Of a stretch of 62,988 nt of DNA, positions 30,272 through 34,394 are shown in pieces. Source of the DNA: Candidatus Aegiribacteria sp. (GTDB lineage: Bacteria; Fermentibacterota; Fermentibacteria; Fermentibacterales; JCC-6); contig JAGLOY010000049.1 in assembly GCA_023138735.1 (NCBI GenBank), positions 1-62,988 of the forward strand, given 5' to 3'. The translations under genes and the position numbers were made by a program. Each line of letters opens with the position of its first letter. The stretch's first letter is position 1. The notes beneath the pieces were generated by a model. That model saw only the letters and a program-made list of their open reading frames with translations. It was not told the DNA's origin and did no database searches.

Positions 30272-31321
30272 ATGAAACTGATGCTTTTACTGTTGCTATC
30301 CATGGCTGCAGTATTGTCGGCACAACAGATCGTGCGTTCGTTTGACGCACCTGACAGCGGTATATCCGGGCTTGCGTACCATGACAATACGCTGTACGCT
30401 GTCGGATCAATATCAAGCACCGTCTATGAACTTGATGAAATGTCAGGTTCGGTAAACAATTCCTGGACAGTCTCTACTTTAGGTACTGAAATTCCAACAG
30501 GTATAGGCTACGCCGGAAACCTTCTGTACATAGGTGCAGATGACGGTACCGGTGGTGGCGGTCATGTTTACAAGTACACAACATCCGGGACCTATCAGGG
30601 CTCTGCGGATATTCTTTGTTGAAGCAGCCCTCTCTGGTCGGTGACCGGAGTTGGCGGAAACGGTTCAAACGCTTACTTTGCTGGTAATAAAACCAGTACA
30701 TCGGGTCCGGAAATGATAGCTAGATGCTATCCATTGCCTCTTGCCGATGCCACCATATCCTTCGCGACTTATATCAACCAGATCAACAGTGTTAACATTT
30801 ACGATATCGCATACGATGGTGACGCAAATGGTGACGCTGAAATATGGGCGGCGACCGATGCAACCGATTCACCGGTGAAGTGCTACGCTTCTACCGGATA
30901 TGCCACTATGGCATTTTCAAGCAGTCTTATTTCGGCTGCCAGAGGTATCGCATTTTACAGTGAAGGTGCTCTGGATTACGTATGGGTAAGTAATCCCGAT
31001 GATGGTAAGATTTACCTGGTTAGTTTTACTCCTACAGGAATTGAAGGCGGATCGCACACTTCGCCCAACGAAATTATGCTTTCAACCAGTATGAATCCGT
31101 TCCATGAGTCGGTAACAATATCTGCAACTGGTATTTCAGAAAACGCGATTGTTGAGATTTACGATGTTACCGGAAGATCCATACTGCGAAGCCCCTTCAA
31201 TGGAACCTTCAATTGGAGCGGTAACGGTTCAGACGGAGTATGCCTTCCCGGAGGATATTACTGTATAAGGGTGCTTGATTCCGATGGCAATGCGGCAACA
31301 TTGAGTATAGTTAAGCTCTGA
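30272..31321 (+). CDS. Secreted beta-propeller selenoprotein (Cys-Sec) with T9SS-type sorting domain
   Basis: A signal peptide (MKLMLLLLLSMAAVLSA) starts a 349-residue protein interrupted once, at codon 117, by TGA (30620-30622), with a Cys codon directly before it (DILC-U-SSPLW). The protein reads through in the same frame: propeller-like blades before and after (LAYHDNTLYAVGS, YDIAYDGDANGDAEIWAATD), then a sorting domain (IMLSTSMNPFHESV, IYDVTGRSIL, PGGYYCIRVLD). A SECIS-like hairpin begins 9 nt after the TGA. Two related propellers in the window (34585, 62156) have Cys-Cys or a single Cys in the comparable place. I therefore read TGA as selenocysteine. TGA is an ordinary stop elsewhere in the window. 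Confidence 0.8.
30632..30650 (+). promoter_or_regulatory. Bacterial SECIS-like hairpin, gene 1
   Basis: CTCTGGTC (30632-30639) pairs with GACCGGAG (30643-30650): 8 bp including one G-U, closing a three-base loop GGT (30640-30642). The loop starts 17 nt after the in-frame TGA. The E. coli fdhF element has a GGUC loop 18 nt after its UGA, so size, distance and loop all fit SelB recognition. Confidence 0.7.
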
Positions 31322-31347: not shown

Positions 31348-31373
31348 GCCCCGGATTCCCAGCAATCCGGGGC
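31348..31373 (+). terminator. Hairpin after the Cys-Sec propeller gene
   Basis: GCCCCGGATT pairs perfectly with AATCCGGGGC (10 bp, 6-nt loop). No T tail follows, so it may act as a 3' stabiliser or a weak terminator. Confidence 0.55.
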
Positions 31374-31472: not shown

Positions 31473-32471
31473 ATGAAAATCTTAGTACTTCTTCTAATGG
31501 TTTTCGCAGCGTTGTCCTTCTCCGCAGAGAGGGTTGTTCTCTGGGAGTACTTCACCCAGACTGGTTGAGGCACATGTGCAAGCAACTGGTCAGCTGCTAA
31601 GACTGCTCTAAATCCATTCGTAGCTTCAGGGGACGTTGCGCCCCTGTACTTGTTCTACAACGGCCCCGCGTCAAATTCATTCTGCTCAGGAAGATTCAGT
31701 TTTTATGGGGTAGGCAGTACTCCAACGGTAAAAATTGATGGTTTGGCTGCAAGTGCCACTCCGTCATCGTACGCCACTGCGTTCAACAACAGGCTTGCGA
31801 TACCAGCTTATATCGATTTCGACATCGAGTACGTCGGTGATGCATCAGGAGGTACGGCTTTCATCAGTATCACTGCTGAGCAGGAGCCTTCTCAATCCTA
31901 CGGCATCAAAGTCTGGTCAGTGATCCTTGAGGATCACGAAATAGCTGGCTCGAGCTGGGGTTATTACGACGGGATGGAGATGATGTGGATTCCGGTAGCG
32001 TATCCACTGGGTGCCCAGGGACGGGTTCTGAACTTCACAGGACCATATCCACAGACTCTGAGCGTAGCTGGTACCTATACGCTGAATCCAGCTAGCCATC
32101 CGTTCAATAACCTGAATGTGGCTACATACGTACAGTATTCATCGGGAACAAGAGAAGTTCTCAATGCAAACTTCATGGACCTTCCAGATACCCCCACGGG
32201 TATAGTCAGTGATGAGACCGGATTCGCACCGGCAAATGCACTGCTTACCGTTGGTCCAAATCCGAGCTATGGAAGCCTTTCAATTAACTGTCTGCTTCCT
32301 TCTGAGGAAACGGGAACAGTTCAGGTATTTGACATAGCAGGAAGAGTAATTGAGAGTTTTCCCGCCGATGGAACTACAAGTACTTTCATTGAGGAAAGCG
32401 GAATCTACTTCGTACAACTTATCACCAGCGGCGGCGAGATGATCAAACGCCAGCTGACAGTAATCCGCTAA
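31473..32471 (+). CDS. Secreted Omp28/thioredoxin-like selenoprotein (UxxC) with T9SS-type sorting domain
   Basis: The ATG at 31473 follows AAGGAGA and opens a signal peptide (MKILVLLLMVFAALSFSA). Residue 32 is encoded by TGA (31566-31568) in the context YFTQTG-U-GTCASNWSAA. In Omp28-like and other thioredoxin-fold proteins this place holds the redox C-x-x-C, so Sec replaces the first, nucleophilic Cys (U-x-x-C). The cis-Pro motif GSTPTVKIDG follows about 60 residues later. The frame then runs to a T9SS-type sorting domain (VGPNPSYGSL, VFDIAGRVI, GIYFVQLI) and a normal stop. A SECIS-like hairpin follows the TGA. The protein is expected to be a surface or extracellular redox enzyme (reductase or peroxidase-type); substrate unknown. 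Confidence 0.82.
31581..31598 (+). promoter_or_regulatory. Bacterial SECIS-like hairpin, gene 2
   Basis: AGCA-a-CT (31581-31587) pairs with AG-c-TGCT (31592-31598), six pairs with one A-C mismatch, closing the loop GGTC (31588-31591). The loop begins 19 nt after the TGA and is identical to the GGUC loop of E. coli fdhF. Confidence 0.68.
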
Positions 32472-32486
32472 CGGTCCTTTATCGGT

Positions 32487-32512
32487 ATGGGGCGGCCGTC
32501 CGGCCGCCCCAT
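32487..32512 (+). terminator. Strong terminator after the Sec thioredoxin-like gene
   Basis: ATGGGGCGGCCG and CGGCCGCCCCAT are perfect complements (12 bp around TC, in practice an 11-bp or 10-bp stem), followed by TTTAAT. Confidence 0.85.
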
Positions 32513-32515
32513 TTT

Positions 32516-32555
32516 AATAGGGACGGAGGCTTTTTATTGTTGAACCGCAAATAAA
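32516..32555 (+). repeat. Half copy of the palindromic repeat found at 6850-6960
   Basis: The first 22 bases (AATAGGGACGGAGG, then CTTTTTAT) match the right arm of the 6850-6960 element (read on the minus strand) exactly. The following ~18 share TTG, AA, GC and AATAA at the same spacing. The other arm is absent. It sits between the terminator and the end of the nifU-like gene. Confidence 0.6.
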
Positions 32556-32595: not shown

Positions 32596-33216
32596 TCAAG
32601 ATTGAATACTTACCTTAATCCCGAAATGCTTATCCAGGTAAAATGAAAGCCGTTCCCTTGCGTCATCGGAGCACTTGCCGCAGGAAGTACCCACCTTTGT
32701 CATCTCCTGAAGCTGATAGTAATTGCGAGCTCCCTCAAGTACTGCATGTTCTATCTCTTCCTCGGAGATATTGAGACACTCGCATACTATCCTCGATTCG
32801 GTATTGTGAACCTTATCTTCCATACCATGTCCGCGGTAGTAGTTATTTATTGCTTCCTGCAGAGCTTTATCACCAAGCACAGAGCAGTGAACCTTGTTAT
32901 CCGGAAGCCCGCCCAGTTCGTTCATTATATCCACGTTTGAGATATTGAACACATCTTCGAGGGTCATACCTTTTATCATTTCAGATAGAACCGATGTGCT
33001 CGCTATGGCGCTTGCGCATCCGAAGGTTTTCCATCTGCAGTCGGTGATTGTTAGAGAATCAGGATTTATCTTCAAATAGAAGATCATCTCATCACCGCAC
33101 TTTATATTGCCGGTCTTACCCTCGGCATCGTATTCAAAATCCTCATCGTCGAACATTATGTTCCTGGGATTCATGAAGTGATCTTTGACCTTATCGGTGT
33201 AAAGCCAGGAGCTCAT
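32596..33216 (-). CDS. IscU/NifU-type Fe-S scaffold with BFD-like [2Fe-2S] domain
   Basis: Residues 1-125 are the IscU fold with its three cluster ligands C40 (IKCGDE), C67 (FGCASAIAS) and C111 (HCSVLG). Residues ~145-190 form a BFD-like [2Fe-2S] domain with CEC ... GTSCGKC, as in the central part of NifU. The C-terminal Nfu domain of full NifU is missing. The ATG overlaps the stop of the cysteine desulfurase gene upstream (ATGA), so the sulfur donor and scaffold are made together. It supplies Fe-S clusters, for example for the several radical SAM enzymes of the window. Confidence 0.9.
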   Translation of the reverse strand: MSSWLYTDKVKDHFMNPRNIMFDDEDFEYDAEGKTGNIKCGDEMIFYLKINPDSLTITDCRWKTFGCASAIASTSVLSEMIKGMTLEDVFNISNVDIMNELGGLPDNKVHCSVLGDKALQEAINNYYRGHGMEDKVHNTESRIVCECLNISEEEIEHAVLEGARNYYQLQEMTKVGTSCGKCSDDARERLSFYLDKHFGIKVSIQS

Positions 33217-34394
33217 CGCTCACCTCCATAAACGGTCGACATTCTGCGCAGCTTATTTACAATTCCAGGGAGAATGTCCAGGACGTAATCAATCTCTTCG
33301 CGGGTTGTTGATCTTCCCATACTTATTCGCAGGGAGCCGTGTGTGAATTCAACAGGAAGATGCATCTCAAGGAGGACATGCGATGGGTCGAGGGATCCTG
33401 ATGCGCATGCAGAACCGGTTGAAACTTCCACTCCTTCATAATCAAGGTAAAGGAGAAGCGCCTCCCCCTCAACCCCTTCAAAGGAAACATTGAGAGTGGA
33501 ATGAAGGCAGCACGCAGGATCACTGTTGAAATGGATGTTCTCGATCCGGCTATCTATACCCTCCCTCAGTATTCTGTTTAGTACACCAAGACGTTCGGAC
33601 TCGGCTTCCATCTCGATGGCACGGAGTTCAACCGCCCTTCCAAGGCCTACAATACCGAGTGTGTTCTCGGTACCTGCCCGCCGCCCCATCTCCTGGTGGC
33701 CGCCCCTTATCAGTGGACAGAAGGGAGTCCCCTTCTTTACGTACAGAGCTCCTACACCCTTAGGGCCATATATTTTATGTGCTGAGATCGTTAGGAAATC
33801 AACATCAAGCTTCTTGACATCCACGGGCAGTTTACCAACCGCCTGCACAGCATCGGTATGGAACATGGCCCCTGATTTATGGGCTATTTCCAGGGCTCGT
33901 TCAACATCCTGAATCGATCCTGTTTCGTTATTCACCATCATAATTGACACAAGCGATGTACTCTCGGTTACCGCCTGTTCAAGGTCATCCATTCTTACAA
34001 TACCCCTCTTGTCTACACCTATGCGCTTTACCCGGGTTCCTCTATTCTCAAGACACTTTGATGTCTCAAGGATGCAGGGGTGCTCTATGGTCGATATTAC
34101 GAGGTCGCTTTCAGCCGGCGCATGCAGACTGCAACGGGCTCCGCTGCAGCTTACAAGTGAAAGCACAGTATTGTTTGCCTCCGAACCGCTTCCAACGAAC
34201 ATGATCTCTTCCGGATCAGCGTTAATAAGCTCGGCGACCTTCTCTCTGGCCGTCTCTATAAGAATCCTGGCAATTCTTCCATCCTCATGAAGACTGGACG
34301 GGTTCCCAAAGATGTCGATTGAATCGATAATTGCTTTCTTTACCTCAGGATGGATAGGTGTTGTAGCGTTGTGATCTAAGTATATCCTTTGCAT
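33213..34394 (-). CDS. Cysteine desulfurase (NifS/IscS class)
   Basis: A class V PLP aminotransferase: it begins IYLDHNATTPIHPEV, has GSEANN for cofactor binding, HTDAVQAVGK, the PLP-lysine in TISAHKIYGPKG and the catalytic Cys loop SACASG near 330. It takes sulfur from cysteine as a persulfide and passes it to the downstream scaffold. Enzymes of this class can also release selenium from selenocysteine for SelD. This may matter because two selenoproteins lie immediately next to it; that link is inference. GGGAG precedes the ATG. Confidence 0.92.
   Translation of the reverse strand: MQRIYLDHNATTPIHPEVKKAIIDSIDIFGNPSSLHEDGRIARILIETAREKVAELINADPEEIMFVGSGSEANNTVLSLVSCSGARCSLHAPAESDLVISTIEHPCILETSKCLENRGTRVKRIGVDKRGIVRMDDLEQAVTESTSLVSIMMVNNETGSIQDVERALEIAHKSGAMFHTDAVQAVGKLPVDVKKLDVDFLTISAHKIYGPKGVGALYVKKGTPFCPLIRGGHQEMGRRAGTENTLGIVGLGRAVELRAIEMEAESERLGVLNRILREGIDSRIENIHFNSDPACCLHSTLNVSFEGVEGEALLLYLDYEGVEVSTGSACASGSLDPSHVLLEMHLPVEFTHGSLRISMGRSTTREEIDYVLDILPGIVNKLRRMSTVYGGER

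Follow-up and report, generated by a model that had tools for sequence, protein, structure and literature searches.

A catalogue published in 2026 covers 119 families and subfamilies of prokaryotic selenoproteins and, in the excerpts available, lists NF045500 as the hypothetical protein GOS_C with a UxxC motif (PMC13188914). The NCBIfam name of this family (NF045500.1) is 'Omp28-related selenoprotein'. A paper of 2008 reported 74 sequences of GOS_C, with a Trx-like fold, and its accessible parts also include secreted proteases among the reported selenoproteins (PMC2398784). The outer-membrane selenoproteins named in the catalogue excerpts include a TonB-dependent receptor and an MtrB/PioB-type barrel (PMC13188914). 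The same excerpts give the rule for a bSECIS hairpin, which asks for a loop of 3–9 nt with a G in the first two positions, an upper stem of 4–16 bp, a distance of 16–37 nt after the TGA and an MFE of at most −7.5 kcal/mol (PMC13188914). HBP35 of Porphyromonas gingivalis, in the accessible parts of its description, is active as a thioredoxin, binds hemin and occurs at the cell surface in a modified form, and is also found in the cytoplasm (PMC2907840).

We analysed a stretch of 62,988 nucleotides from Candidatus Aegiribacteria sp. (Fermentibacterota), referred to as the window. A preliminary description, made from the letters of the window, had read the frame 31473–32471 as a secreted thioredoxin-fold protein with selenocysteine (Sec) at an internal TGA. 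The comparisons reported here lead us to hold, with high confidence, that this gene encodes a true selenoprotein, which is predicted to be exported by the type IX system (T9SS) and would act at the surface as a thiol/disulfide exchanger with a UxxC motif.

Results

The gene and its surroundings

The frame 31473–32471 has GGAG directly 5' of its ATG, and its single interruption is the TGA, around which the protein reads F-T-Q-T-G-U-G-T-C; it is otherwise open (Table 1). The preliminary description had seen in this frame a signal-peptide-like start, the motif TG-U-GTC, a T83-P84 loop and a sorting domain for T9SS, and translation and profile search found them as stated. The sorting domain scored 36.5 bits with TIGR04183 (cut-off 23) and 26 bits with PF18962, slightly below the cut-off of 27. 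The T9SS translocon component SprA has a homologue in the window's genome (426.2 bits with in-frame neighbours, cut-off 200), and was found in all five genomes searched and in none of 14 controls. Thus, on the criteria for T9SS type A cargo, the window protein has a sorting domain above the TIGR04183 cut-off and its genome has SprA, in agreement with the sorting route proposed earlier.

An independent gene beginning downstream, at TTG 31650, was considered and disfavoured, because the 27 codons from the TGA to this TTG are also under selection (dN/dS 0.17–0.29) and because such a gene would start past the UxxC motif. The terminator-like hairpin that follows the frame is absent from the list produced by a consensus terminator scan. 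Between the two candidate selenoprotein genes of Table 1 there is a strong inverted repeat (31348–31373) without a T run. Directly downstream of the frame 31473–32471, on the minus strand (32596–34394), are NifU/IscU-like and NifS/IscS-like genes, named by eye from their translations. Cys desulfurase is given among the possible selenium donors to SelD in the excerpts of the catalogue (PMC13188914).

Table 1. Positions in the window of the two candidate selenoprotein genes and their predicted features.
Feature	Position	Strand	Basis or remark
Beta-propeller protein gene with T9SS-like tail, second candidate selenoprotein	30272–31321	+	349 aa
TGA read as Sec, C-U motif (C116-U117), context ILC-U-SS	30620–30622	+	60/69 aligned homologues TGA
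bSECIS-like hairpin CTCTGGTC-GGT-GACCGGAG, perfect stem, loop 17 bases past TGA	30632–30650	+	fold, shuffles
Candidate Sec-containing thioredoxin/Omp28/HBP35-like protein gene	31473–32471	+	332 aa with TGA read through
Signal-peptide-like N terminus, residues 1–18	31473–31526	+	from translation; predicted helix 2–15
TGA read as Sec, first position of UxxC (U32-G-T-C35)	31566–31568	+	TGA/Cys column in homologues
bSECIS-like hairpin AGCAACT-GGTC-AGCTGCT, loop GGTC 31588–31591	31581–31598	+	A·C mismatch in window copy
S82-T83-P84, place of thioredoxin cis-Pro loop	31716–31724	+	translation, alignment; cis geometry putative
T9SS type A sorting domain, residues 261–325	32253–32447	+	TIGR04183, PF18962
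Terminator-like GC-rich hairpin, then TTTAATAG	32487–32512	+	fold of 32472–32520, −25.7 kcal/mol

The TGA/Cys column and selection

Homologues were searched in 40 genomes, comprising 30 from Fermentibacterota (G000–G029, where G000 is the window's own genome) and 10 others. Matches above 30 bits that spanned the TGA column, with near-identical stretches taken once, gave 62 rows, one of them gapped at the column. Alignment with Cys homologues had been proposed as a check, and it placed a Cys codon at the column in 24 of the 61 remaining homologues and TGA in the other 37. Cys was present at +3 from the column in every aligned copy. In a family alignment of 54 rows (the members of at least 300 residues out of the 62), residue 35 was an invariant Cys and P84 was nearly invariant. 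A second set consisted of 64 loci from named genomes, found by a pattern upstream of the column and overlapping the first set through many shared genomes. It contained 67 readable copies, and the column, assigned by eye, was TGA in 31, Cys in 35 and Gly in one, the Planctomycetota locus L245.

At least 19 of the 30 genomes from Fermentibacterota, and at least one of the 10 others (G036), contained homologues with one internal TGA. Measured against four relatives, dN/dS after the TGA of 31473–32471 was 0.19–0.21, and the codons beyond the TGA are therefore translated. TGA is also an ordinary stop in this DNA, where it ends 18 of the 45 window ORFs taken as genes.

In a tree of the 'quick' type, the TGA and Cys forms of Fermentibacterota fell into separate clades. 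Over 72 labelled rows, with own_C154 and G022_C41b not counted, there were four TGA/Cys changes, and the starred branches force two. Thus, the TGA and Cys forms of this phylum are mostly old paralogues, not recent swaps.

The hairpin after the TGA

The hairpin in the window begins at the 13th base past the TGA, and its GGTC loop is separated from the TGA by 19 bases, exactly as had been described. Spacing, loop and G fit the bSECIS rule. The energy does not: in our own scan, which was used rather than bSECISearch, this hairpin was the weakest among the 37 TGA forms, at −4.9 kcal/mol, whereas the limit of −7.5 kcal/mol was attained by 35 of the 37 TGA forms and two of the 24 Cys forms. Its mismatched A is base 31585. 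Folded alone it reached −2.7 to −3.7 kcal/mol (z 0.64), with 142 of 200 shuffles folding at least as well, and over the 51 bases from the TGA a different structure was favoured (−7.1 kcal/mol). Since the hairpin is mismatched and no better than shuffles, that one copy is weak evidence. The preliminary description had relied on it as a sign of Sec, and this argument stands for the relatives, in which the hairpin is conserved, but not for the copy in the window.

Across the TGA forms, the family stem has 7 bp and a 4-base GG loop 19 bases after the TGA. Six or seven stem pairs were in register in 33 of the 37 TGA forms, and in 36 when a shift of one base was allowed, whereas the 24 Cys forms had at most four of the seven pairs in register and at most five with shifts. 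Unguided folding recovered the same stem in TGA forms, and the stem is kept across peptides as different as SSWSAV, SSAGAV and GSAVTV. When 36 of the 37 TGA forms (all except L090) were recoded with synonymous codons, 3.70 ± 0.18 of the seven pairs remained, compared with 6.75 in the real sequences, a one-base shift being allowed in both.

Covariation was counted in 34 aligned TGA sequences, leaving out L090 and also L063 and L064, in which the hairpin is shifted by one base. Compared with shuffles, which do not preserve the relatedness of the sequences, paired cells made up 96.1% (86.2% in shuffles), double-change cells numbered 23 (6.2) and the covariation score of the stem was 0.364 (0.186). 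Further pair types were not above shuffles in these sequences (8 versus 9.0). Sliding the stem partner destroyed the pairing, leaving 17–66% paired. The energy scan discriminates poorly, because five of nine non-TGA homologues of the neighbouring propeller protein (see below) and two of the 24 Cys forms also reach −7.5 kcal/mol. We therefore relied on the synonymous-codon controls, the covariation count and the pairs in register. As far as comparison of sequences goes, the hairpin conserved in relatives is strong evidence for Sec.

Sec machinery in the window's genome

The window's genome contains selA (513.8 bits), selB (327.9 bits) and selD (317.9 bits), all above cut-off, with selA and selB together on contig C188 and selD on contig C162. 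The selD gene itself has a TGA, within GPCAG-U-AGK (L052 2761–2763, equivalent to G000:C162, minus strand). A hairpin with a GGC loop 22 bases past this TGA has an A·C mismatch, yet reaches −8.0 kcal/mol, and is taken as the SECIS of selD.

Searches of the window's assembly, one of which scored 150 of 313 candidates, gave no full-length tRNA-Sec, and none was found near selA/selB or near selD. The assembly is fragmented, with 192 contigs, and one of these (C163) ends inside a tRNA-Sec gene (L255 581–603), of which the last 19–23 bases are kept, depending on whether the 3' end of Rfam or of ARAGORN is used. This remnant is identical to four relatives, and the flanking DNA matches the DNA around a relative's tRNA-Sec. 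The missing complete gene is best explained by an assembly break. Thus, when selA, selB, selC and selD were sought as the preliminary description had suggested, three of the genes were present above cut-off and selC was present as a 3' remnant at a contig end, with no complete gene. Of the 24 Fermentibacterota genomes that were searched, 19 have a complete tRNA-SeC(TCA). The five in which it was not found are G000, G004, G006, G010 and G012, and of these G004 and G006 carry TGA forms.

Fold and family of the window protein

The AlphaFold2 model of the window protein had a pLDDT of 89. Its best PDB match was HBP35 (5y1a), over the whole length (E 8e-14, TM 0.58), and the family profile also matched HBP35, over residues 18–312 (E 5.4e-5). 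By profile and model, HBP35-like domains are thus present over the whole length of the window protein. The structural match had 15% identity. Its rmsd of 15.3 across 339 columns shows that the two proteins differ in how their domains are placed.

The name 'Omp28-like', used in the preliminary description, suits the family but not the window protein by itself. Pfam PF11551 (Omp28) was matched at E ≤ 1 by 38 of the 54 family members (best E 6.1e-12), and the window protein gave no match at this threshold. The NF045500 (GOS_C) model describes proteins which, like this family, are Omp28-related with a thioredoxin-like fold and UxxC, as far as the accessible sources describe them. It was matched at E ≤ 0.1 by 39 of the 54 members, and not by the window protein at E ≤ 1 (cut-off 200 bits). 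Of ten proteins scanned against NF045500, eight matched, none at 200 bits, the best being a Phycisphaerae protein with 122.9 bits.

TGA forms outside the phylum

Omp28-like proteins of the TGA form were also found in MAGs or genomes of Planctomycetota (L230, L231, L233, L243 and L249) and in MAGs of Acidobacteriota (L232 and L234). Hairpins follow the TGA in these forms and, judged by eye, most loops start with G. Some of them sit in far longer frames. A coupling between TGA form and tRNA-Sec outside Fermentibacterota was not evident, as tRNA-SeC was found in three of six genomes with a TGA form and in two of four with Cys or Gly. The closed chromosome CP070718.1, from Phycisphaerales, carries two TGA forms (L230 and L231); tRNA-Sec was not found among the 150 of its 600 candidates that were scored.

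A beta-propeller neighbour

The upstream frame 30272–31321 is also interrupted by one TGA only. In 69 aligned homologues this column was TGA in 60, mostly as C-U or C-x-x-U, and Ser in nine, which are also without the Cys. The 60 TGA copies came from at least 28 of the 30 Fermentibacterota genomes; among the matches listed, none was from G008 or G012. The hairpin after this TGA reached −17.2 kcal/mol with flanks (z −3.87), and none of 200 shuffles was as good. Across the propeller TGA forms the longest stem averaged 7.7 bp, compared with 4.3 bp in synonymous recodings (sd 0.17). A further propeller alignment took 58 of the 69 homologues. After the TGA of 30272–31321, dN/dS was 0.12–0.17. One homologue, L141 (G001:C7), has a second in-frame TGA 60 residues past the first.

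The model of the neighbour (pLDDT 88) has a beta-propeller fold. It shares this fold with PorZ (5m11, E 1.4e-11) and papaya glutaminyl cyclotransferase (2iwa, E 1.4e-8, TM 0.65 over the target), from both of which it is set apart by its putative C-U/C-x-x-U Sec motif. Its tail scored 21.5 bits with TIGR04183, slightly below the cut-off of 23, and the only matches of the propeller family in curated libraries were to sorting tails and, weakly, to general models of propellers or repeats.

Among the matches listed, propeller and thioredoxin-like genes stood side by side at four places in three genomes (G000, G016 and twice in G011). In the window's genome, the TGA form is present seven times for the propeller and three times for the thioredoxin-like protein (C137, C154 and C63), with intact stems in C154 and C63. 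Counting selD as well, the predicted selenoprotein genes number at least 11; for seven of these the prediction comes from TGA column and hairpin.

Discussion

The coding reading of 31473–32471, its Sec/Cys column, the family hairpin, the Sec genes, and the homology and predicted fold shared with HBP35 were established by comparison. At the level of sequence, four observations strongly support the Sec reading: TGA alternates with Cys at the column (37 and 24 homologues), the hairpin is conserved and covaries, the genome has Sec genes, and the codons past the TGA are under purifying selection (dN/dS near 0.2). We agree with the preliminary description that selenocysteine is the best reading. For the window protein we infer Sec insertion itself, a surface location and redox activity.

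The degraded hairpin in the window and the fragmentation of the assembly into 192 contigs might suggest a pseudogene, in which a nonsense mutation or sequencing error interrupts an ordinary Cys protein. This is very improbable, as a TGA form is present in at least 19 of 30 genomes from the phylum, every aligned copy has Cys at +3, and dN/dS after the TGA is about 0.2. We find it equally hard to credit that, through a changed code or a suppressor, UGA would specify Trp or Cys instead of Sec. A Cys-inserting tRNA would also fit columns in which TGA takes the place of Cys, but TGA ends 18 of the 45 window ORFs taken as genes, the hairpin goes with the TGA forms, and selA, selB and selD are present, with tRNA-SeC in relatives.

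A further reading accepts the Sec family as true and regards the window copy as a decaying paralogue, whose mismatch makes most ribosomes stop. The window copy does have the weakest hairpin of the 37, in a genome where the C154 and C63 TGA copies have intact stems; however, purifying selection acts on the window gene after the TGA, and the selD hairpin of the same genome reaches −8.0 kcal/mol with an A·C mismatch of its own. We consider decay unlikely. There is a somewhat better, if still minor, chance that the protein contains Sec and works as a folding catalyst in the periplasm or outer membrane, or as a heme- or metal-binding protein, instead of a surface redox exchanger. HBP35 binds hemin, has thioredoxin activity and is cytoplasmic as well as at the surface, according to the accessible parts of PMC2907840, whereas the T9SS sorting domain above the NCBIfam cut-off and the presence of SprA favour the surface.

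If the window protein is a surface selenoprotein, UGA 31566–31568 would be decoded as Sec by SelA, SelB, SelD and tRNA-Sec, aided by the downstream hairpin. The signal peptide would direct the product to export, and the C-terminal domain would then take it across the outer membrane by way of the type IX system. At the cell surface, it would carry out thiol/disulfide, or thiol/selenide, exchange with a UxxC centre in the manner of HBP35, Sec being the attacking residue. The propeller neighbour with its C-U motif may be its redox partner or substrate.

More broadly, we lean slightly towards an extracellular selenium redox system in Fermentibacterota. It would comprise UxxC thioredoxin-like selenoproteins and undescribed C-U/C-x-x-U propeller selenoproteins, in several copies each, many with T9SS sorting domains and some adjoining, and would expose Sec chemistry at the cell surface. 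Such a T9SS-sorted set, if true, would bring this chemistry to the outside of uncultured bacteria, with several of the genes in each genome. Gene callers unaware of Sec are expected to split these genes, and the exported redox proteins of the phylum are therefore probably misannotated. With its long conserved stem and TGA copies in no fewer than 28 of 30 genomes, the propeller family is well suited for testing a selenoprotein family whose fold was not found in the catalogue.

The preliminary description had supposed that a Sec-containing Omp28-like protein was undescribed. This broad claim of novelty fails, because NF045500, the 'Omp28-related selenoprotein' GOS_C, was already reported in 2008. 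In openly licensed literature, as far as its accessible parts extend, we found no earlier report of the narrower case, a T9SS-sorted selenoprotein, of a bacterial propeller selenoprotein family or of selenoproteins of Fermentibacter/Aegiribacteria, nor any paper that names Omp28 together with selenoproteins. In the excerpts available, neither a propeller family nor a T9SS cargo as such appears by name in Table 1 of the catalogue (PMC13188914). The beta-propeller family with Sec thus appears new, its fold not being found in the accessible part of the catalogue, and the T9SS-sorted, HBP35-like selenoprotein branch of Fermentibacterota looks new as well. Like HBP35, the window protein has a thioredoxin-like motif and a conserved C-terminal domain; unlike HBP35, which has two active-site Cys in the accessible parts of its description (PMC2907840), it would have Sec in the first of these positions.
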